From a bacterium (GTDB lineage Bacteria > JAMOTN01), in assembly GCA_027062325.1 (NCBI GenBank), contig JAMOTN010000051.1, positions 1-28,121 on the forward strand: a stretch of 28,121 nucleotides of DNA, given 5' to 3'. Positions 3,069 to 18,765 of this stretch are shown piece after piece. The stretch's first letter is position 1, and every line of letters starts with the position of its first letter. A model generated the notes under the pieces. The model made no database searches. It worked only from the letters and a program-made list of their open reading frames with translations, and was not told where the DNA came from. Made by a program: the position numbers and the translations under genes.

Positions 3069-3806
3069 ATGAAAAAAGGAGAAAAATTTAATTCCGAATT
3101 TGAAAAAAAACTCTTTAAAGCAGCGCAAAACGGCGACCAAAATGCCCTTGCTTATCTATGTATAAAACACTCAGGTCTTGTCGTGAAAATTGCTAAAAAA
3201 TATGCACGTAATCAGTCTCAATTGGATGATCTAATTCAAGAAGGTTTCATCGGCCTTATAAAAGCCATAAGAAAATTTGATCCAGAGCTTGGATGGAACT
3301 TTTCAACAATGGCTGTTTGGTGGATAAGAGATGAAATATTAAGGTATGTTTTAAAGGAAACCCATGCAGTCTCTATTCCTGTAGATACATTAAAGAAAGT
3401 TTACAAAGTCTGGAAAGCTGAACGTGAATTTGAGGAGAAGTACTCTCGAAAACCCTCTTTCGAAGATTTGAAAAACCTGGGCTTCTCTGAAGACTTAATA
3501 AAACTATCGCAAAATTTAAAAGAAGCCCGTTTAATGAACAATTTACACGAAAAATACACTAAGAAATTTACCTCTGACATTGAAAACTCATCGTTAGTCG
3601 ATCAGATCAAGGAGATAATCGAATCTCTTCCATTGAGAGAGCGTCTAATTCTGGAGTTGAGATACATAGATGCAAATTTGAAGTACAACACCATAGCACG
3701 AGTCCTAGGTATATCTCGTCAGCGTGTAAAACAGCTTGAAAAGAGAGCTATACAGCGCATAAGGGAGGCATTGGGCGAAGAATGGGACAAAAGCTCATCG
3801 GGATAG
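3069..3806 (+). CDS. alternative RNA polymerase sigma factor (sigma-70 family)
   Basis: Directs RNA polymerase to a specific promoter set. The 245 residues contain region 2 with DDLIQEG at 53-59 and FSTMAVWWIRDEI at 78-90 (core binding and -10 recognition), a region-3 like stretch from about 97 to 150, and region 4 with the helix-turn-helix around 207-228 (TIARVLGISRQRVKQLEKRA) for -35 recognition. Region 1.1 is absent and the protein is far smaller than a housekeeping sigma, so this is a group 2/3 type factor close in style to RpoH, SigB or FliA; I cannot say which. The ATG at 3069 has a strong GGAGG eight bases upstream. The 3' end overlaps the next gene by 25 bases, so it is probably co-expressed with the envelope genes downstream and may control them. 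No anti-sigma factor is next to it. Confidence 0.93.
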   Translation: MKKGEKFNSEFEKKLFKAAQNGDQNALAYLCIKHSGLVVKIAKKYARNQSQLDDLIQEGFIGLIKAIRKFDPELGWNFSTMAVWWIRDEILRYVLKETHAVSIPVDTLKKVYKVWKAEREFEEKYSRKPSFEDLKNLGFSEDLIKLSQNLKEARLMNNLHEKYTKKFTSDIENSSLVDQIKEIIESLPLRERLILELRYIDANLKYNTIARVLGISRQRVKQLEKRAIQRIREALGEEWDKSSSG

Positions 3807-4669
3807 GTTACTTTGGATTCGGCAACTATGGGGACGAACTCATAGCAGAAACTCTCAAAGAGTTGGGAATATCACCTATAAAGATTACATCTCACGTTTT
3901 GAAGTTTTTATCAAGCTTGAAAAATAGCGGGAAGATTTTTGTCCTATCAGGAGGTTTGTTCCACTCATTTACTAATTCCAACATCTACTATTCTTTGCTT
4001 TCACTTCTCCTATCCTTCAAAAACAAAGTCGTTGGATTCGGAATCTCGATAGAGAAAAACGCTGTTGGACTTTTGAGCAAAGTTGCCCTATCAAGATTTA
4101 GTTTACTGGGCTTAAGAGACACATTTTCTCTGCTTATTGCCAAAAAAGCAAATTCTTCATCCTTTCTATCTTCTGATTTAGTTTTTCTAAAAGAAAAATT
4201 TGACAAAGAAATCGTCCCAACTCACAACAAAAACATACCTACCCTAATCCTACACAACTCTAAACAACTCTCACTTCTTGGTAATATTGTTGAAAAATTC
4301 AATATATACAGTGCCTTTCCAAAAGATGAATTCGATTACAAATCTCCCAGAGAGATAAATTGGATAATAGAAAATTCTCCACTTATCATAACCTCAAGAC
4401 TTCACGTTGCAATAGTTTCACTTTTATTTAAAAAACCATTTGTGTTTGTAGCTCCCCAGCCTCACTCAAAACACATCTTTTTTTTCCAGGATAATAACCT
4501 AGAGTTCACTCTTTTTACTAATAGCAACAAAGGCGAATTTAACCTTAATGAAGTTGTAAACAAATTCAACTCCTTAAATATTGATAAAATCATTGGTAAA
4601 AATAAAAAGTTAGCACACTCTTTTCTAAAAAAGTTGAAAGATGCCTATTGGGAGGATCAAAAGTGTTAG
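3782..4669 (+). CDS. csaB: CsaB-like polysaccharide pyruvyltransferase
   Basis: CsaB-family enzymes transfer pyruvate from phosphoenolpyruvate to a cell-wall polysaccharide, creating ketal groups to which SLH-domain surface proteins bind. The family's start motif GYFGFGNYGDEL is at residues 9-20, SGG at 56-58, GLRDTFS at 110-116 and the C-terminal TSRLHVAIVSLLFKKP block at about 204-219. The 295-residue length is at the short end for the family. It begins inside the end of the sigma factor gene (GGGAGG lies 13 bases upstream, a long spacing) and ends seven bases inside the next gene. It is AT-rich and carries many Asn, Ser and Phe residues, unlike the more charged metabolic proteins nearby. 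The family assignment is good; the acceptor polymer is unknown. No SLH protein is visible in this window. Confidence 0.8.
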   Translation: MGQKLIGIGYFGFGNYGDELIAETLKELGISPIKITSHVLKFLSSLKNSGKIFVLSGGLFHSFTNSNIYYSLLSLLLSFKNKVVGFGISIEKNAVGLLSKVALSRFSLLGLRDTFSLLIAKKANSSSFLSSDLVFLKEKFDKEIVPTHNKNIPTLILHNSKQLSLLGNIVEKFNIYSAFPKDEFDYKSPREINWIIENSPLIITSRLHVAIVSLLFKKPFVFVAPQPHSKHIFFFQDNNLEFTLFTNSNKGEFNLNEVVNKFNSLNIDKIIGKNKKLAHSFLKKLKDAYWEDQKC

Positions 4670-5613
4670 ACAGAGTATACAAATTCTTTCAACAAACCGA
4701 CAAGTTTTTAAAAGAAAAGTTTAAATCCTACACTCCTTCCGTACTAACGATTGGAGTTGGTAATATACAAGTTGGAGGAACAGGTAAATCTCAGCTTTCT
4801 CGCCTTATTTATATATCTTTAAAGGAGCTGGGATACAAACCTATAATTTTAGTAAAAGGTTACAAAGGAAGAGTCAAAGAAGGCCTTGTAACTTCTACTG
4901 ACTGGGTAAAATGGGGCGATGAAGCCGTTGAAAATTTTGTTCTAGGTTACAAAACATTTGTATCAAAAGACAAGGTAAAAGGTGTAAAAAAAATAGAAAA
5001 ATTAGGATTATTTGACGCTGTGATCATCGATGATGCTTTTCAACTCTATGGTTTAAAAAAAATTGAACTTTTATCACTGAATCTTGATAAAAAACCAGAG
5101 GAGGATAAACTTCTCCCTTTGGGGCGCCTTCGCGAAGAGCTGTCTTCAATTGAAAGAGCAAACGCATGTATAATTTTCAACTTCAAAAGACGTCCTATAC
5201 CACAATCAATTCTAAAGTTTTTAGTTCTAAAGCCGTTCTTTGAAATAAATAAGCTAACATTAAAGTTTTTACAAGCTAGAACAGAGAACGAACTTAGAAA
5301 CTCAATTGTAAATAAAAAATTTTACACTTTAGATGAAGTAGTCATAGGATGTGCCATAGGAAATCCTCAATCTTTTCTCAAATCCGTTGAAGACAATGGA
5401 GTAAAAGTTAAATCTATTGTTCCATTTCCAGATCATCATCCTATAAATCTTGAAAAGTTAAAATCTTTAGCCAATTCAATTCCAATCTTAATAACTCTAA
5501 AAGACTGGGTAAAACTCTCTCCTGAGCAGAGAAAAGACTTATTTGTTGCTATACCATTTCTACCAAGTGAAGTAAAATCATTTATAAGAAAGCATGTTTT
5601 ATCACAAGTATAG
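4663..5613 (+). CDS. LpxK-like tetraacyldisaccharide 4'-kinase family protein
   Basis: Resembles LpxK, the membrane-associated P-loop kinase that phosphorylates the 4' position of the lipid A precursor. Visible blocks, numbered from the GTG start: P-loop GNIQVGGTGKS at 33-43, KGYKGR at 65-70 (family SRGYGG), GDE at 85-87, IIDDAFQLYGL at 121-131 (family DDGLQH) and LLPLGRLREE at 150-159 (family LPAGPLREP). Length 316 residues is normal. A TTG opens the frame at 4648, but GTG 4663 is preferred: GGGAGG ends seven bases before it. It overlaps csaB by seven bases. Several family residues are changed (Arg to Lys in the RGYG box, the Gly and His of DDGLQH lost), and no other lpx gene is in the window, so the substrate could be another glycolipid or polymer carrier. 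Confidence 0.72.
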   Translation: MLDRVYKFFQQTDKFLKEKFKSYTPSVLTIGVGNIQVGGTGKSQLSRLIYISLKELGYKPIILVKGYKGRVKEGLVTSTDWVKWGDEAVENFVLGYKTFVSKDKVKGVKKIEKLGLFDAVIIDDAFQLYGLKKIELLSLNLDKKPEEDKLLPLGRLREELSSIERANACIIFNFKRRPIPQSILKFLVLKPFFEINKLTLKFLQARTENELRNSIVNKKFYTLDEVVIGCAIGNPQSFLKSVEDNGVKVKSIVPFPDHHPINLEKLKSLANSIPILITLKDWVKLSPEQRKDLFVAIPFLPSEVKSFIRKHVLSQV

Positions 5614-5624
5614 TGGAGGACAAT

Positions 5625-6026
5625 ATGCTGATAATAGGAATAGATCCGGGAACTCATAAACTTGGAGTGGCTGTGTTTAACACCGAGAGAAACTCATTTG
5701 TAAAATCAGAAATCGTTGATTTAAGAGAACTTCAAAGATTATTAGAATCCTCTGATATAAAACTGGCAGTTTGTGGTTCCGGCACAGGATGTAAAAAAGT
5801 GTTCTCCATTTTGAACTCTTTGAAAATTCCCTTTACGGTTGTAAAGGAAGAAAACACCACAGTAATGGCAAATGAAAGGCTAAAGAAGAGCTTTTGGGGA
5901 TGGATTAAGTTAATATTCGGAAATGTTGATGATGAAGTAGCAAAAATACTGGTAGAGCTATTTCTAAAAAATCCCGAAAAGTATCTTAACTGCAAAAGCC
6001 ACAAGCCAAGCAACGGCTGTTGTTAG
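5625..6026 (+). CDS. small YqgF/RuvC-like RNase H-fold protein
   Basis: A 133-residue protein beginning MLIIGIDPGTHKLGVAVF, the first strand and DPG motif of the RuvC/YqgF (RNase H-like) superfamily. EENTTVMAN at about 87-95 matches the acidic DExTT motif of YqgF, and NVDDEVAKILVELFL near 110-124 matches the VDxxAAxxIL motif, so three acidic metal-binding positions appear kept. YqgF trims 16S rRNA ends and RuvC resolves Holliday junctions; which activity applies here is not evident. GTG 5613 overlaps the upstream stop, but ATG 5625 has GGAGG five bases upstream and is preferred. Its last 63 bases overlap the end of feoB on the other strand. The C-terminal tail is Cys/Lys/Ser rich and lies wholly in that overlap. 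Confidence 0.65.
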   Translation: MLIIGIDPGTHKLGVAVFNTERNSFVKSEIVDLRELQRLLESSDIKLAVCGSGTGCKKVFSILNSLKIPFTVVKEENTTVMANERLKKSFWGWIKLIFGNVDDEVAKILVELFLKNPEKYLNCKSHKPSNGCC

Positions 6027-7987: not shown

Positions 7988-8023
7988 GTTAACGTTGAGG
8001 AAATTAAAAAAGGAGGGATGAGC

Positions 8024-9295
8024 ATGAAAAAAGTTCTTATCATTGGATCAGGTCCTGGAGGTTATGAAGCAGCACTCCATGCTAGAAAAGAAGGATACGA
8101 AGTTGTTCTAGTTGAAAAAGACAAAATAGGAGGAACATGTCTAAACAGAGGTTGTATTCCAACAAAAGCTCTGGTAGAAGCTTCATATCTTTATAAAAAA
8201 GCAACTGGGGGAAAGTTTGGAATCAAAGGAGCAACTTTTGATCTTTCTGAGATTATTGCCTATAGAAATAAGACCACAGAAACTTTGAGAAAAGGTTTAG
8301 AACAAACCCTTGTTAAAAGTGGAGTTCAAATTGTAAAAGCAGAAGCTCAATTTAAAGACGGTAAAGTCATAGTAAATGGAAAAGAAGAAAGTTATGATTA
8401 TCTAATTTTGGCAACAGGTTCTCGCCCATTTATCCCACCATTTGAAATCTCAACAGAAATCTTAACAAGTGACAATTTCACAGAAGGCAATTTTGAAGTG
8501 AAAGATACAATAGTTGTTGGAGCAGGAGTAATAGGCTTGGAAATCGGAACAGCCCTTGCCATGCTTGGAGCTAAAGTAACAGTAATCGACATTGCTCCTA
8601 AGATTCTTCCTGCAGCTCCAGCAACTGTTCAATCAAGATTATCTGCATACCTAAAAAAACTTGGAATTAAATTCATGCTCAATTCAAAGGTAGAAAAGAT
8701 ATTTGAAAAAGACGGTAAAAAGGCCGTAGCTTTGGAAAACGGAGACGTAGTAACTGCAGATCAAGTACTTGTTGCAGTAGGAAGAAAACCAAACACTGAA
8801 GGATTAGAAAGCTTGGGTTTGCAAATAGATCGCGGATTTGTCGTCACCGATGAATACTGCAAAGCCAAAGACAACATTTTCGCAATAGGTGATATTGCAA
8901 CCCGTGCCATGCTTGCTCACACCGCAAGTCATCATGCTCAAGTTGTCATCGATTACATAACCGGTAAAAAACGCTTTAAGAAGGAAGAATTTCCAATTCC
9001 GCAATTTGTATACACTCAACCTGAAGCCGCATGGGTTGGTGAATTCACTGGTAGAGCTAAAAAACTCGTTCTTGGAGCAGTTGGAAAAGCAATAGTAGAT
9101 CAAACAGAGGGTATCATTGAAATTCATACAGACGGCGAATATGTAAAAGGCTTCGTAATGATAGGATACGGAGCAAGTGAAATTGTAAATCTTGCAAGTG
9201 TTGTTATCACTGCTAAGGTAACAGTAGAAGATATTGAAAAGATAATATTTGCCCACCCAACGCTCTCTGAAGGTTTCAAAATGACATTGATGTAG
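8024..9295 (+). CDS. lpdA: dihydrolipoamide dehydrogenase-like flavoprotein (short form)
   Basis: FAD-dependent disulfide oxidoreductase that reoxidises dihydrolipoyl groups of 2-oxoacid dehydrogenases or the glycine cleavage H protein with NAD+. GSGPGG at 8-13 binds FAD, the redox pair Cys39/Cys44 sits in GGTCLNRGCIP, VVGAGVIGLEIG is the NAD-binding fold, AIGDIA the second FAD contact, and the C-terminal HPTLSE at 411-416 supplies the His-Glu pair of the partner subunit. At 423 residues it is about 40 shorter than typical; some 25 residues seem to be missing between WVG and the last strands of the dimerisation domain, where family members carry the TExEAxxxG segment. ATG 8024 is used rather than ATG 8018, which would touch the GGAGG site. 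No lipoyl E2, E1 or H protein is nearby. Confidence 0.88.
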   Translation: MKKVLIIGSGPGGYEAALHARKEGYEVVLVEKDKIGGTCLNRGCIPTKALVEASYLYKKATGGKFGIKGATFDLSEIIAYRNKTTETLRKGLEQTLVKSGVQIVKAEAQFKDGKVIVNGKEESYDYLILATGSRPFIPPFEISTEILTSDNFTEGNFEVKDTIVVGAGVIGLEIGTALAMLGAKVTVIDIAPKILPAAPATVQSRLSAYLKKLGIKFMLNSKVEKIFEKDGKKAVALENGDVVTADQVLVAVGRKPNTEGLESLGLQIDRGFVVTDEYCKAKDNIFAIGDIATRAMLAHTASHHAQVVIDYITGKKRFKKEEFPIPQFVYTQPEAAWVGEFTGRAKKLVLGAVGKAIVDQTEGIIEIHTDGEYVKGFVMIGYGASEIVNLASVVITAKVTVEDIEKIIFAHPTLSEGFKMTLM

Positions 9296-12631: not shown

Positions 12632-13501
12632 GTGGTCATTCTCGTAAATTACATAAAAGATGTCCGCAAATTTATCACTGAATGGCGCAGTAAAGCTCTA
12701 TCTATTGGTTTCGTTCCAACCATGGGATTTCTCCATTCTGGACACCTGCAGTTAATGAAAGAATCTGCTAAAACATGCGATAAAGTTGTAGTTTCAATCT
12801 TTGTAAATCCAACGCAATTTGGTCCAAATGAAGATTACGATAAGTATCCACGAGACTTAAAACGTGATCTAAAGTTATGCGGGGAAGTTGGAGTCGATCT
12901 GGTTTTTGCTCCTCCTGTTGAAGAAATGTACCCTGAAAAAACTTTTATAAAATTTCACGTAGAAACTTTAGCAGATGAGTTATGTGGTAAACACCGCCCT
13001 GGACATTTTGCAGGAGTTTTACAAGTAGTTGCAAAGCTTTTCAATATCGTCCAACCAGACTATGCCTTCTTTGGTAAAAAAGACGCTCAGCAGCTAATCA
13101 TAATAAAGCGCATGGTAGAAGAGTTGAACTTTCCAATTCAAATAGTCCCCGTTGACACAGTACGCGAAGAAGACGGACTAGCAATGAGTTCCAGAAATAC
13201 TTATCTTTCAGAAGAAGAGAGGAAAATTGCTCCAAAGTTTTATGAAGCTTTAAAAGATGCAGTAGCTTTACTTTCAAAGATAGGGATTGAAGAAGTCAAA
13301 AAAAAGACCATAGCCTCATTAGAAAATGCTGGATTCAAACCACAATATGTGGAAATTGTGGATCTCAAAACGTTGCAACCAGTTGGTAAACTTGAAGAAG
13401 GAAAAGAATACATGATTGCCGGAGCTGTATTCTTGGGAACAACTCGTCTAATAGATAATCTCTGGTTTAAGTTTAAAAAGGGGAGGGCTGTTCTGATATG
13501 A
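12632..13501 (+). CDS. panC: pantothenate synthetase (pantoate--beta-alanine ligase)
   Basis: Cytoplasmic enzyme that joins pantoate and beta-alanine with ATP (via pantoyl-adenylate) in the coenzyme A pathway. [15 protein letters not shown] carries the nucleotidyl-transferase HxGH motif (His35, His38); [17 protein letters not shown] and MSSRNTYL are family blocks for pantoate and ATP binding. The 289-residue length is normal. The start is GTG 12632, with a run of six G ending six bases upstream. An ATG in the leader is followed at once by a stop and is not a gene start. The stop overlaps the ATG of the carboxyltransferase gene by four bases, so coenzyme A supply is coupled to an acyl-CoA carboxylase. 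No panB or panD is nearby. Confidence 0.96.
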
Positions 13502-15051
13502 GTACAATGCGTGAAAAAATTGAACAGTTAAGGGAATTACGTGAAAAAGTAAAGCTTGGTGGTGGCGTAAAACGCATAGAATCACAGCATAAAAAGGGTA
13601 AATTAACAGCAAGAGAGCGCCTAGCTTTGTTCTTCGATCCCGGAACATTCAGGGAGCTTGACTCATTCATGCTTCACCGCTGCACAGACTTTGGTGTAGA
13701 CAAAACTAAAATTCCGGGGGATGCTGTTGTCACTGGATACGGGCTCGTAAATGGACGCCTTGTATTTGCATATGCACAGGACTTTACAGTCCTAGGTGGA
13801 TCCCTTGGGGAAGTGTGTGCTCAGAAGATATGCAAGGTAATGGATTTGGCAATGCAAAACGGAGCACCAATTGTTGGTTTTAACGATTCAGGTGGTGCCA
13901 GAATACAAGAGGGTGTTTTGAGTCTTTCAGGATACGGTGAGATTTTTTATCGCAACACAATCGCCTCAGGTGTAATTCCTCAAATTGCAGCAATAATGGG
14001 TCCCTGTGCAGGAGGAGCTGTTTACTCTCCGGGTATAATGGATTTTACGTTCATGGTTGAGAACACAAGCTACATGTTCATAACTGGTCCTCAAGTTATA
14101 AAAGAGGTAACCAGCGAAGAGGTAAGTTTTGAAGATCTTGGTGGAGCAAGTGTTCACACTTCAAAGAGCGGCGTTGCTCACTTTACGGCTAAGAGTGATG
14201 AAGAATGCATAGACATGATTAAAAAACTTTTATCGTACCTTCCCTCAAATAACTTAGAAGAACCACCGTATGTTGAACCAACGGAGGAAACGCATCGTCT
14301 AATTCCAGAACTTGAGGATATTGTCCCTGTTGAGTCCACAAAGCCTTACGATATGAAGGAGGTCATAAATTACGTTGTAGATAAAGGCTCATTTTTTGAA
14401 GTACAACCAAACTTTGCTCCCAATATCATCGTTGGTTTTGCAAGAATTGCTGGAAAAGTTGTAGGAATTGTAGCTAATCAGCCAAAAGAGGCCGCAGGAA
14501 CTCTTGATATAAACGCATCCGTAAAAGCTGCAAGATTTGTCAGATTTTGTGACTCATTTAACATTCCAATAGTTACGTTTGTTGACGTGCCGGGATTCTT
14601 ACCTGGAGTTAATCAGGAACATGACGGAATAATAAGGCATGGTGCAAAATTGCTTTACGCATATAGTGAAGCAACAGTTCCAAAGATTACAGTGATTGTG
14701 AGAAAAGCTTACGGTGGTGCATACATTGTCATGGGAAGCAGACACTTGAGGGCAGATTTTGTATTTGCATGGCCTACAGCGGAAGTTGCTGTTATGGGAC
14801 CACAGGGAGCCGTCAACATTCTCTACAGAAAGCAACTCGCTGAAGTTGATAATCCTGAAGAAGAAAGAAAGCGCCTAATTGATGAGTATACAGCAAAATT
14901 TGCCAACCCTTACAAACCTGCTGAGTATGGCTTTGTAGATCAGATAATTGAACCTGCAGAAACTCGTATACACATTAACGATGCACTTGAAGCTCTAAAG
15001 AATAAGCGCGCTAACCTTCCTCCTAAAAAACACGGAAATATTCCTCTTTAA
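13498..15051 (+). CDS. acyl-CoA carboxyltransferase beta subunit (propionyl-CoA carboxylase / methylmalonyl-CoA decarboxylase alpha type)
   Basis: Carboxyltransferase that moves CO2 between carboxybiotin and an acyl-CoA. The 517 residues contain the crotonase-like N and C halves. The opening [16 protein letters not shown], then [13 protein letters not shown] and [12 protein letters not shown], and later [29 protein letters not shown] written here as its key parts [17 protein letters not shown] and FAWPTAE, are hallmarks of PccB/MmdA proteins and include the Gly-Gly pairs of both oxyanion holes. It is full length. Next genes are a biotin-carboxylase-like protein (18 bases on) and a biotin carrier. 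No membrane beta subunit of a sodium-pumping decarboxylase is present, which argues for a soluble carboxylase or transcarboxylase. Whether acetyl-, propionyl- or methylmalonyl-CoA is used cannot be read from the sequence. Confidence 0.92.
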
Positions 15052-15069
15052 AGAAGAGAGGTGTAATAG

Positions 15070-16476
15070 ATGGAAAAGGTATTTGTGGCAAATAGAGGTG
15101 AGATTGCAACCTCAATAATAAGAAGTGCCAAGAAAGCTGGTCTTAAAACAAAAGCTCTTTGGGTAAAAGGAGATCCATCTTTTCATAGACAAATAGCGGA
15201 TGAACTTGTCATAACAGAAAGTGCAAACGTTCTTCTAAATGCAAAAGCCATAGTTGAAGCTGCAGATGGATGCAATTACTTACATCCAGGATACGGATTT
15301 CTGGGGGAGAGTCATCTTCTCTATTATGAAGCAAAGTTGCGAGGAATAACTCCTTTTATGCCCGATGAAAATGTCATACTATTCGGCCTCAATAAACTCC
15401 TATTCTGGAAAGAACTTGAGAGGCAAAAGCTACCAGTACTGCCTTTCTTTGAAAAGGTCGTTCGATCAACAACAGAGTTAAAAGAGGCTGCAAATATCGT
15501 AGGTTTTCCGTTAGTCTTGAAAAGCAATATAGGATGCGGCGGAAAAGCAATTGCCATTGTTGAGAACGAAGAACAGCTATACGAAAAATTTCTAACTGTG
15601 CAACGTACATCTACCATTTTATTCGATAGTGGTGATATAGTTGTTCAAAAGTTTGCTAAAGGAGACGTCATATCAGTCGCAGTCCTTTCAGACGGAAATG
15701 ATCTATTTATCCTCCCTCCAACTAAATCAATTCTCTTTAGAAAATTCCAAAAATTGGCTACATCCACTGAAGTTTCCAGTTCTGTCGCTAGGAAAGTCGA
15801 AAAGCTTACTCGTTCAATCTTAGCTAATCACCGCTTTAAGGGAATAGTAGAGATTGAATTTATAGAGAGTGAAGGTGAACTATATCCAATAGAGTTAAAT
15901 CCACGCCTTCCTTCTGACTACCACATAATAAATGCTGCACTCCAAGATGACATAGTTTTTTGGGCTATCAAAGCTCACCTTGGTGAAAAAGTCAAGATAA
16001 ATACACGCAAAGAGAAAGAATGTGTATGGTTCAAAGTTTATGCAGAAGATGTATTGAACAACAACCAGCCGGTTCCCGATTTCATTGAGAAAGTCGTCGT
16101 ACCACACTTCAGAAATCTACGATGGTATCCAAGCGTTACATATCCTTCAAAACTTCCTATAAGTTTTGAAGCTTTAATAGGAGTAGCCGTAGCAGTAGAA
16201 GACACTATGGAGGCTGCTAAAGATAGCGCCATTCAAATTCTAAGTGAGATAATTGTAACCGGTGTTCCAACAAATAAAACTCTTATAAAGGCAGCTCTTA
16301 TGAACAAATCTCTTGAAGAAGTTATCAGTGAAATTGAAGAGCTTGAAATCTATGCAGCAATAGGATCAGCTTTACATGACTACTTCTCAATAAATGCTAC
16401 CAAACCTATTAACGTATCCCGTACAAACTGGAAAGATTTAAACAAATTCAAAGCCATGTTCATAAGCAGAATATAA
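15070..16476 (+). CDS. divergent biotin carboxylase-like ATP-grasp protein
   Basis: Biotin carboxylases use ATP and bicarbonate to carboxylate biotin on its carrier. The N-terminal domain is recognisable (VFVANRGEIATSIIRSAKKA, YLHPGYGFLGES), as are Lys109 and Lys151 at the usual ATP positions, Glu275, Asn277 and Arg279 in IELNPRL. Elsewhere the protein departs from the family: RRHQK is RKFQK (His lost), the following VEEAP is LATST, QVEHP after NxR is PSDYH (Gln to Pro, Glu to Asp), the RHxEIQV box is gone, and the Arg of the ECRxxAED box is Lys322. At 468 residues it is slightly longer than the usual 450. GAGGTG lies six bases before ATG 15070. Placed between carboxyltransferase and carrier, so it should still serve the complex, but bicarbonate chemistry may be altered. 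Confidence 0.78.
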   Translation: MEKVFVANRGEIATSIIRSAKKAGLKTKALWVKGDPSFHRQIADELVITESANVLLNAKAIVEAADGCNYLHPGYGFLGESHLLYYEAKLRGITPFMPDENVILFGLNKLLFWKELERQKLPVLPFFEKVVRSTTELKEAANIVGFPLVLKSNIGCGGKAIAIVENEEQLYEKFLTVQRTSTILFDSGDIVVQKFAKGDVISVAVLSDGNDLFILPPTKSILFRKFQKLATSTEVSSSVARKVEKLTRSILANHRFKGIVEIEFIESEGELYPIELNPRLPSDYHIINAALQDDIVFWAIKAHLGEKVKINTRKEKECVWFKVYAEDVLNNNQPVPDFIEKVVVPHFRNLRWYPSVTYPSKLPISFEALIGVAVAVEDTMEAAKDSAIQILSEIIVTGVPTNKTLIKAALMNKSLEEVISEIEELEIYAAIGSALHDYFSINATKPINVSRTNWKDLNKFKAMFISRI

Positions 16477-16491
16477 ACCGAGGTGGAGCAT

Positions 16492-16995
16492 ATGAAGTGG
16501 ATAATTGGAGTTGGAGACAAAAATATAGAGGTCGAACTCATTTCTAAACAGCGAGCTTCCTTTATCTTTAGGGTGGGTGACAGAGAAATAAAAGTGGAAC
16601 TCCCAGACAACTTAAAGCGCTCAAATGAACTTCTGATAGACGGTAAACTTGTAAACCTCAAGTATCTCTACAATTTTCACAACGAACTAGCAAAAGTTTT
16701 AGTCAAAGACCTAGCAATCCCTGTCAAAATTTCCAAACCAACAATTGAACGCCCAAAAGTGGAGGAAAAAGACATATCAAAAGCTGTAGTTAAAACTGAA
16801 CTTGCAGGCAAAGTGTTGAAAATCTTAAAGGACGAGGGTGAAAAAGTCAAAAAAGGCGAAGTAGTGATAATATTCGAGTCTATGAAGATGGAAAACGAGA
16901 TAACTTCTCCTATTGATGGTGTTGTAACAAGTATAAACGTCGAGGAAGGAGATAGTGTTTTAGCAGGTTATAATCTATTCGTAGTTGAAAAGTGA
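16492..16995 (+). CDS. biotin carboxyl carrier protein (biotin/lipoyl attachment domain)
   Basis: Carries the biotin that shuttles CO2 between the carboxylase and carboxyltransferase. The C-terminal biotinyl domain has the ESMKMENEITSP motif with the biotinylated Lys132 and ends in GDSVLAGYNLFVVEK. The N-terminal half (about 85 residues) is a beta-rich domain (for example FIFRVGDREIKVELP), followed by a linker with Pro, Lys and Glu. The linker is not the Ala/Pro-rich type of AccB. The frame opens at GTG 16483, but ATG 16492 is chosen because GAGG lies eight bases upstream. It starts 15 bases after the carboxylase-like gene. A biotin-protein ligase must be encoded elsewhere. Confidence 0.9.
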   Translation: MKWIIGVGDKNIEVELISKQRASFIFRVGDREIKVELPDNLKRSNELLIDGKLVNLKYLYNFHNELAKVLVKDLAIPVKISKPTIERPKVEEKDISKAVVKTELAGKVLKILKDEGEKVKKGEVVIIFESMKMENEITSPIDGVVTSINVEEGDSVLAGYNLFVVEK

Positions 16996-17007
16996 TAATC
17001 GAAAACC

Positions 17008-18765
17008 ATGAAGTTCGTAGGAACCGTAAAAAAAGTTATCTACTCATCACCCACTTTTTCAGTCTTTGTCGTATCAAAGGGAATGGAGAATATTATCGTA
17101 ACGTCAGATATTCCAGTTGAAGTGGGAGAAACTTTTGAATTCGAAGGTGACTTTACAACTCATCCTCGCTACGGTCTTCAATTCAAATCCATTAAAACGC
17201 TACCAGTAGACGGTTTAGAAGCATCAATTTTCTCAATTAAAGGGATAAGCTCCTCAACCTGGAAAAAACTCAAGCAGAGCTATGGATGGAAGCTTAACAA
17301 CGTTCTACGTCACGATCCATATCGCATAGCATTCGAGATAAAAGGAGTTGGTTTTAAAAAAGCAGATACCATAGCTCAAGGTTTAGGCATATCAAAAGAG
17401 CAGCGCAATTCTGCAGCAACACGTTGGGTACTAGAGTCGTACTTTGAAAATGGTCATACTGCTATGCCTCTTGAAGAATTTTATTTTGAACTTGAAAAAT
17501 TGAACGCTTCACCAGTTGCAGATGAAACTGTAATAGTTGGCAATCTGATCACCACTAAGCAGATGTTTGAAATCGAAAAGCAATTAGCAGAAAAGCTCCT
17601 TTCCTTATCAAACTCAATTGGCTGGTGGAATTCTCCAGATTTTCTCGAGCGCTTAAAAAATTTTCCAAAAACAGAAGAATTCTCCTTTACTTCAGATCAA
17701 CTCGCAGCATTTTCGTGCTTGGCATATCCCGTATCGATCCTTACAGGAGGTCCCGGAACTGGCAAAACTACTCTTCTAAAATTCTTCGTAAAATTCTTAA
17801 AATCTGAAGGACTAAGTGTAGTGATAGCTGCGCCCACTGGTAAAGCTGCCCGGCGTCTTGAAGAAGTAACAGGAGCTAAAGCTTTTACTATTCACAAGCT
17901 ACTCCTACAACTTACTCCAAATGCAGCCGATGTACTGATCATCGATGAAACTTCTATGCTGTCTGTGGATCTGGCACTAAAACTTCTCTCTTCTTTAAAT
18001 CCACCAGTTCAAATCATATTTGTTGGTGATCCAGATCAACTTCCCTCAATCGAACCAGGAAACTTCCTAGAAGATCTAATCAACTCAAGATGTTTTGTAC
18101 ACTGGCACCTCACCTCTAAACACCGTTTTAGAACATCAGGTATAGCTTTAGCTGCTGAAAAAGTCCTTGAAGGTAAGTGGCCAAGTGGCGTGGAATTCAT
18201 CCCATCAACTACCGACACCATTTTTTCCACTCTTTCAAAGTTTGATAATTCATGGCAGCTCTTAGTCCCCATGAAGCGTGGTAAAGTTGGAACTTCTCGG
18301 ATAAACGCCTTCATGCAAAAGCGCTTCGCATCTTCTGTAAGGAACTTTGGGGGTATAAGGCTTGGAGTTGGCGACAGAATTATATGGACTAAAAACGATT
18401 ATACTCTTATGCTCTTAAACGGCCAGGTTGGAAAAGTCACTTCCATAACACCTCTCAAGTTTAAATTTGAAGATGAAAATTCGCCTCGTTCGATACCCCA
18501 TGAGAAACTTTTCATGCTGGACCTTGCATGGGCAATATCCATTCACAAATCACAGGGTAGCCAATTTGAAAAAGTTTTGATTCCTGTATTCACTGAGCAT
18601 TACATAATGCTGTCTCGCCGCCTAATATACACAGCACTTACTCGCGCTGAAAAAGAGTGCATATTTATAGGTCAAAAGAGAGCCCTTATGATGGGGATCA
18701 ACAAAAAAGATCAATTAAAGCGAAACACTTTGTTAGTAAATTTTTTAAAAAAACTGCACACTTGA
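17008..18765 (+). CDS. recD2: RecD2-like 5'-3' DNA helicase (superfamily 1B)
   Basis: ATP-driven DNA helicase of the RecD2/TraA type, expected in DNA repair in organisms where it is not part of RecBCD. Residues 1-60 resemble the RecD2 N-terminal OB-like domain, and 70-130 contain helix-hairpin-helix-like segments (IKGISSSTW, IKGVGFKKAD). The motor has Walker A GGPGTGKTT at 247-255, Walker B IIDETSM at 311-317, GDPDQLPS at 340-347, the late HKSQGSQF motif and YTALTRAE near the C-terminus. At 585 residues it is shorter than the common 700-800, mainly in the N-terminal region and the accessory domains. It lies 12 bases after the biotin carrier gene with no evident Shine-Dalgarno site, so translation may depend on coupling. 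It looks like a passenger in the carboxylase operon. Confidence 0.85.
   Translation: MKFVGTVKKVIYSSPTFSVFVVSKGMENIIVTSDIPVEVGETFEFEGDFTTHPRYGLQFKSIKTLPVDGLEASIFSIKGISSSTWKKLKQSYGWKLNNVLRHDPYRIAFEIKGVGFKKADTIAQGLGISKEQRNSAATRWVLESYFENGHTAMPLEEFYFELEKLNASPVADETVIVGNLITTKQMFEIEKQLAEKLLSLSNSIGWWNSPDFLERLKNFPKTEEFSFTSDQLAAFSCLAYPVSILTGGPGTGKTTLLKFFVKFLKSEGLSVVIAAPTGKAARRLEEVTGAKAFTIHKLLLQLTPNAADVLIIDETSMLSVDLALKLLSSLNPPVQIIFVGDPDQLPSIEPGNFLEDLINSRCFVHWHLTSKHRFRTSGIALAAEKVLEGKWPSGVEFIPSTTDTIFSTLSKFDNSWQLLVPMKRGKVGTSRINAFMQKRFASSVRNFGGIRLGVGDRIIWTKNDYTLMLLNGQVGKVTSITPLKFKFEDENSPRSIPHEKLFMLDLAWAISIHKSQGSQFEKVLIPVFTEHYIMLSRRLIYTALTRAEKECIFIGQKRALMMGINKKDQLKRNTLLVNFLKKLHT

Follow-up and report, generated by a model that had tools for sequence, protein, structure and literature searches.

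A biotin-carboxylase homologue with an altered active site, probably a retained pseudo-subunit, in an acyl-CoA carboxylase-like operon

Biotin carboxylase (BC) is regarded as being among the most strictly conserved catalytic modules, and the BADC proteins of plant acetyl-CoA carboxylase are non-catalytic pseudo-forms of the biotin carboxyl carrier protein (BCCP). The bridging loop of BC is universally conserved except at one position (PMC5407890), Glu296 is the conserved base, or proton acceptor, of the enzyme (PMC11077971), and the single changes N290A, R292A and R338Q each cost the Escherichia coli enzyme 100–250 fold (PMC8667948). Subunits of biotin-dependent carboxylases can be shared or can be non-catalytic: the BC subunit AccA3 serves several carboxyltransferases (CTs), namely AccD4 and AccD5 (PMC4347857), and AccE, a non-catalytic subunit, raises activity about 20-fold (PMC7835884). 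In the present study, we analysed an operon with a CT and a BCCP of orthodox sequence and a BC homologue, BC-A, that keeps N290 and R292 of the three residues above and has Lys at position 338. The departure of BC-A from known BCs is real and unusual and, judged by its sequence, the protein is probably a pseudo-subunit that an acyl-CoA carboxylase has retained.

The operon and the active site of BC-A

The window, the whole stretch of 28,121 nucleotides that was analysed, is carried by contig C51 of a genome of 1.65 Mb that is 84% complete. On the plus strand, the genes follow each other in the order panC, CT-A, BC-A and BCCP-A, with intergenic gaps of 18 bases between CT-A and BC-A and 15 bases between BC-A and BCCP-A, and panC is probably co-transcribed with CT-A because the two overlap by four bases. 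A preliminary description of this DNA had placed an acyl-CoA carboxylase-like cluster at 13498–16995, and its coordinates and reading frames were correct; it had also called the CT and the biotin carrier orthodox, which is borne out by their Pfam matches and by the ESMKMEN motif listed below.

12632–13501, plus strand: panC, pantothenate synthetase (PF02569, 363 bits); four-base overlap with the start of CT-A
13498–15051, plus strand: CT-A, orthodox carboxyltransferase of the MmdA/PccB type, 517 aa (PF01039, 672 bits)
15070–16476, plus strand: BC-A, biotin-carboxylase homologue with a deviant active site, 468 aa (PF00289, PF02786 and PF02785, residue table, model)
15664–15684, plus strand: DVISVAV of BC-A, replacing the RHxEIQV box (H209V, E211S, Q213A; alignment and residue table)
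15736–15753, plus strand: FRKFQK of BC-A, replacing the bridging loop QRRHQK that leads from the ATP site to the biotin site; K238 retained (alignment)
15892–15924, plus strand: ELNPRLPSDYH of BC-A, replacing E(M)NTR(I)QVEH; E288, N290 and R292 retained, Q294P, V295S, E296D and H297Y changed (alignment)
16033–16035, plus strand: Lys codon of BC-A, replacing Arg338 of the canonical ECR (alignment)
16402–16473, plus strand: C-terminal tail of BC-A with an SxW motif (SRTNWKDLNKF), of low confidence in the model
16492–16995, plus strand: BCCP-A, biotin carboxyl carrier protein, 167 aa (PF00364, 59.7 bits); an alternative GTG start at 16483 is possible
16885–16887, plus strand: biotin-attachment Lys codon of BCCP-A in ESMKMEN (IFESMKMEN; sequence and motif search)

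Elsewhere in the window, a RecD2-like helicase of 585 aa (17008–18765; matches to PF14490, AAA_30 and UvrD_C_2) begins 12 bases past the BCCP-A stop. A dihydrolipoamide-dehydrogenase-like protein at 8018–9295 is merely 425 aa long, scores 349 bits against the lipoamide_DH cut-off of 409 and appears to have a shortened dimerisation domain. Overlapping genes at 3782–6026 resemble by eye CsaB (polysaccharide pyruvyl transferase) and LpxK. After them comes a weak match to RuvX that overlaps, at its end, a FeoB-like gene encoded on the opposite strand.

The residues of BC-A were compared, in the numbering of E. coli AccC, with 55 canonical homologues, one extra counted row being the window sequence itself. 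Ten positions unchanged in the 55 homologue rows are altered in BC-A (E201Q, H209V, E211S, Q213A, Q233F, Q294P, V295S, E296D, H297Y and R338K), and R16S was read from later alignments. The change H236F was dropped as a marker of deviance, since position 236 is naturally variable (H, Y or N) and Phe occurs there in some otherwise canonical BCs. At loci L193 and L206, for example, BCs with otherwise canonical QVEH motifs have QRRFQK, with Phe at the usual His/Asn/Tyr position of the bridging loop. BC-A retains K116, K159, K202, K238, E276, E288, N290, R292 and R366, the HPGYGF motif and, as GCGG, the greater part of its glycine loop, so that all of the ATP-phosphate and Mg residues tested (K116, K159, E276, E288 and N290) are present. 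Its bridging loop does not have the canonical form QRR(H/N/Y)QK, and at the bicarbonate/biotin positions Q294, V295, E296 and R338 it carries P, S, D and K, with K238 and R292 retained.

The residue table thus agrees with the preliminary description both in what BC-A keeps, the ATP-side Lys residues and the ExNxR core (K116, K159, E288, N290 and R292), and in what it has changed (RHQK to KFQK, QVE to PSD, the ECR Arg to Lys, and the lost RHxEIQV box). That description had also summarised these changes as a loss of the bicarbonate-site residues, which holds at the bicarbonate/biotin positions 294–296 and 338; however, K238 and R292 are retained, and the changes reach beyond the bicarbonate site, since most of the RHxEIQV box (H209, E211, Q213) belongs to the nucleotide side. 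A frameshift or assembly artefact was ruled out: the other two frames contain 40–41 stops and no canonical motif, and BC-A has the codon usage of its neighbouring genes. The SxW tail is found in many CT-linked split-type BCs and is missing from short stand-alone AccC. The idea that a BT domain begins with this tail as its first strand was not confirmed; two fused subunits had no clear SxW motif.

Fold and divergence of BC-A

BC-A matches PF00289, PF02786 and PF02785 above their cut-offs, and solved BCs match it with E values down to 3e-38; its score against the accC profile, 160 bits, is far under the cut-off of 626.5. An AlphaFold2 (AF2) model from the single sequence gave a pLDDT of 33.5, and a usable model (pLDDT 75.7, pTM 0.77) was instead built from four sequences, BC-A and three BCs from viral contigs. 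This model superposes on the Staphylococcus aureus BC (2vpq) with Z 43.3 and an rmsd of 2.4 Å over 424 residues, and on 3g8c with Z 40.8. In the predicted structure, BC-A retains the biotin-carboxylase fold. However, the bridging loop falls in the stretch of lowest confidence of the folded part (residues 222–233), with a pLDDT below 50, so the model does not discriminate a working from a dead enzyme, and the pocket side chains are not readable from it.

The kept phosphate side of the ATP site, the changed biotin/bicarbonate side and the general ATP-grasp motif NPR in ELNPRLP would suit a BC-A that catalyses a new ATP-grasp reaction or controls the complex purely by sensing nucleotide. We consider this hardly probable, because the adenosine-side positions E201, H209, Q233 and H236 are altered too, the neighbourhood gives no clue to a substrate, and no other ATP-grasp family matches BC-A better than BC does.

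The divergence of BC-A is out of step with that of its partner. CTs of other genomes, which in most cases immediately precede a canonical BC, are 61–64% identical to CT-A, whereas BC-A is only 23–28% identical to the BCs of those same genomes, which average 50% among themselves in a set that takes in one deviant, that of genome G256. Furthermore, BC-A shares 40% identity with the E. coli enzyme in the N-domain and 21% in the active-site core (204–300), whereas the canonical paralogue of the same genome shares 53% and 58%, respectively, the core being its best-conserved part. Such a reversed conservation gradient is the pattern that we would expect when catalytic constraint is lifted and the fold is kept. 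On these identities, the departure of BC-A exceeds ordinary divergence.

Two readings had been offered in the preliminary description: either the subunit has diverged yet still works, or the complex has ceased to fix bicarbonate and functions in transcarboxylation or decarboxylation. According to the first, BC-A would be a strongly diverged working BC in which K238, R292, Asp296 and Lys338 rebuild the bicarbonate/biotin pocket, making the operon a self-sufficient acyl-CoA carboxylase. The phosphate and Mg ligands (K116, K159, E276, E288 and N290), K238, R292 and HPGYGF are all kept, E296D and R338K are conservative and preserve charge, the predicted fold is intact, and the order CT-BC-BCCP is that of working carboxylases; this reading therefore keeps a minority share of our confidence. 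It is nevertheless unlikely, because many invariant positions are altered together, including Q294P/V295S and the bridging loop, because the active-site core is less conserved than the N-domain, and because comparable deviants in other genomes have lost the ATP site.

Carboxyltransferases of the genome and comparable operons

CT-A matches PF01039 over residues 30–515. It has the motif GGAYIVM, with Ile at what we take, from the GGAY motif, to be the acyl-specificity position. In Streptomyces coelicolor, this is the position that permits the use of acetyl- as well as propionyl-CoA (PMC7835884). The genome encodes three CTs, and CT-A is 59% and 58% identical to its two paralogues. One paralogue belongs to a second CT-BC-BCCP triplet on contig C68 (L034), which adjoins a succinyl-CoA-synthetase-like sequence identified by eye. 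This triplet has the same gene order and subunit types as the window operon, with CTs that are 59% identical; it differs in that the active site of its BC is intact (RIQVEH, QRRYQK and ELR), and this BC is only 28% identical to BC-A. The genome also encodes a FabD-family acyltransferase, a malonyl-CoA user, and therefore probably requires malonyl-CoA; a separate AccD was not found in it.

Genes named by eye as MeaB-like and as methylmalonyl-CoA epimerase precede the third CT, and contig C23 carries OadB, the sole OadB/MmdB copy found, together with OadG and a BCCP of its own. Contigs C60 and C23 (L163, L164) may thus encode a putative Na+-pumping methylmalonyl-CoA decarboxylase split over two loci, with the B12-binding protein, MeaB, epimerase and CT at one and OadG, BCCP and OadB at the other. 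These loci bear on the second reading of the preliminary description, in which bicarbonate is not fixed and CT-A shuttles the carboxyl group between acyl-CoA and BCCP-A, and onward to another CT or to an OadB-type membrane decarboxylase. The curated family that scores highest with CT-A is TIGR01117 (mmdA, methylmalonyl-CoA decarboxylase alpha), at 869.9 bits and under the cut-off of 998.8, and the genome contains an OadB/OadG/BCCP locus, both of which would fit such a shuttle. However, the CT beside MeaB and the epimerase and the OadB locus with its own BCCP indicate that Na+-coupled decarboxylation has its own gene set, which weakens this reading, and the nearest relatives of CT-A mostly precede canonical BCs. 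No OadB/MmdB membrane subunit was found in the window locus and, in the part of the window open reading frames scanned, no 5S (pyruvate/oxaloacetate) transcarboxylase subunit lies beside the triplet. To our knowledge, none of the known decarboxylases includes a BC-like subunit. We regard a transcarboxylase or decarboxylase as improbable.

The comparison of neighbourhoods called for in the preliminary description led to comparable operons in three genomes. One further deviant BC, in genome G256, came to light in the 29 top-ranked CT neighbourhoods; the phylum of G256, other than that of the window genome, yielded two more, in G387 and G388. All three operons have CT, deviant BC and BCCP in the order of the window, with an orthodox CT and BCCP. 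Like BC-A, these deviants carry Q294P and have lost E296, and their genomes contain a canonical BC elsewhere; they differ in being only 19–22% identical to BC-A, and those of G256 and G387 have lost the ATP site, whereas BC-A has kept the phosphate and Mg residues. The G256 deviant has lost K159, the glycine loop, E288, R292, Q294, V295 and E296, and the G387 deviant, about 42–43% identical to it, is more degenerate still, the ATP and bicarbonate sites being destroyed in both. The G388 deviant is milder (H209L, Q213C, Q233R, Q294P, E296S and H297Y) and keeps the ATP-phosphate residues. In G388 (L101, minus strand), an in-frame TAA past the BC frame end at 1624 stands between the BC domain and a recognisable SxW tail (SPWTVLGR), and a nonsense change, decay or an assembly error is possible.

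G256 and G387 each contain two CT-BC-BCCP triplets (G256: L098:2571-6199 and L158:4534-8081; G387: L160:6843-10414 and L159:1863-5495), one of them deviant and the other fully canonical, and in G388 a canonical BC adjoins a small BCCP-like gene. When G256 is compared with G387, the deviant-operon CTs are 84% and the BCs about 42–43% identical, against 73% and 70%, respectively, for the canonical triplets; relative to the canonical triplet, constraint in the deviant operon is therefore stronger on the CT and much weaker on the BC. Synonymous sites between the two deviant BC genes are saturated and there are no stops, and the open frame is therefore under selection. Extreme divergence might suggest that BC-A is a decaying relic without a role, but the intact frame of 468 codons, the normal codon usage, the tight operon and the comparable G256/G387 gene that stays open despite saturated synonymous change make this very unlikely.

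All four deviants share Q294P and the loss of E296, and three of the four share H297Y. Identical derived residues between BC-A and the other deviants occur at only approximately 1.4–2 times the chance expectation, whereas the G256/G387 pair, a true one, has 15 against 3.4 expected. CT-A branches beside the CTs of the deviant operons, with a top identity of 65% (to the G388 CT), and a single clade of the four deviant-operon CTs was not rejected (p 0.21). The BC tree also groups the deviants, on long branches of which one is at the limit of the method, and the phylogeny of BC-A is uninformative because of a saturated branch. The four deviants may descend from one deviant ancestor or may have converged.

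The deviant state is rare, as no deviant BC was found in 60 further CT neighbourhoods, of which 16 contained a full-length and one a cut-off BC nearby, canonical as far as visible. No orthologue of BC-A was found in a contig scan, which possibly left out its own genome, or in its phylum, represented here by this genome alone, and in 386 diverse genomes none stood out in score from canonical BCs. A profile of the four deviants recovered no further member above the background of canonical BCs, a level under which lower-scoring members would escape, and when the G388 deviant was used as query around G387, nothing distinct from canonical BCs was returned. In the literature covered, mostly of open access, we found no paper joining biotin carboxylase and carboxyltransferase with 'pseudoenzyme', nor, among the papers listed in a second search, the phrases 'inactive' or 'degenerate' biotin carboxylase.

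A proposed role for BC-A and comparison with known systems

Taken together, the reversed conservation gradient, the asymmetry of rates and the deviants without an ATP site in comparable operons speak for a loss of BC chemistry. This part of the second reading of the preliminary description is consistent with our data, but a third option, charging in trans, fits better than a transcarboxylase or decarboxylase. We propose the following scenario, to which we give roughly even credence: BC-A is a BC-fold pseudoenzyme, or nearly so, kept for assembly or regulation, and the biotin of its operon is charged in trans. BC-A would make no carboxyphosphate or carboxybiotin at a useful rate and may keep BCCP-A attached to the CT hexamer, as a structural and possibly nucleotide-sensing component. 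BC-B, the canonical BC of the C68 triplet, could then carboxylate the biotin of BCCP-A in trans, its presence in a second triplet being what makes such charging feasible, and CT-A would carboxylate a short acyl-CoA (acetyl- or propionyl-CoA). We infer the loss of BC-A activity, the scaffold role, the charging in trans and the substrate of CT-A. Counting against a pseudoenzyme, the kept phosphate and Mg residues, K238 and R292 and the conservative E296D and R338K make some catalysis by BC-A possible.

A wider claim, which we advance more tentatively, is that in CT-BC-BCCP operons of at least two phyla the BC has become a conserved pseudoenzyme, either several times or by a single event in a shared ancestor, and now serves to assemble or gate a CT that a paralogous BC charges in trans. 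A BC-fold subunit without catalytic residues in two phyla would imply a structural or regulatory job for BC in split acyl-CoA carboxylases, and would also show that BCs are able to charge the carriers of other complexes. For annotation, a CT-BC-BCCP operon alone does not prove a self-sufficient carboxylase.

Compared with active AccC and the BCs of split acyl-CoA carboxylases (EC 6.3.4.14), BC-A shares the fold, the domain order, HPGYGF and the phosphate and Mg ligands, and with the split-type subunits also its place in a CT-BC-BCCP operon and the SxW tail. It differs from both in the bridging loop, Q294/V295/E296, R338, H209/E211/Q213 and Q233, and in its score far under the accC cut-off. The role proposed for BC-A resembles that of BADC and AccE, which take no part in catalysis and serve the control or assembly of a biotin-dependent carboxylase. 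A conserved pseudo-BC subunit, if real, would be to BC what the pseudo-carrier BADC of plants is to BCCP; BADC is a carrier look-alike and AccE (epsilon) a small unrelated subunit, whereas BC-A is a look-alike of BC itself.
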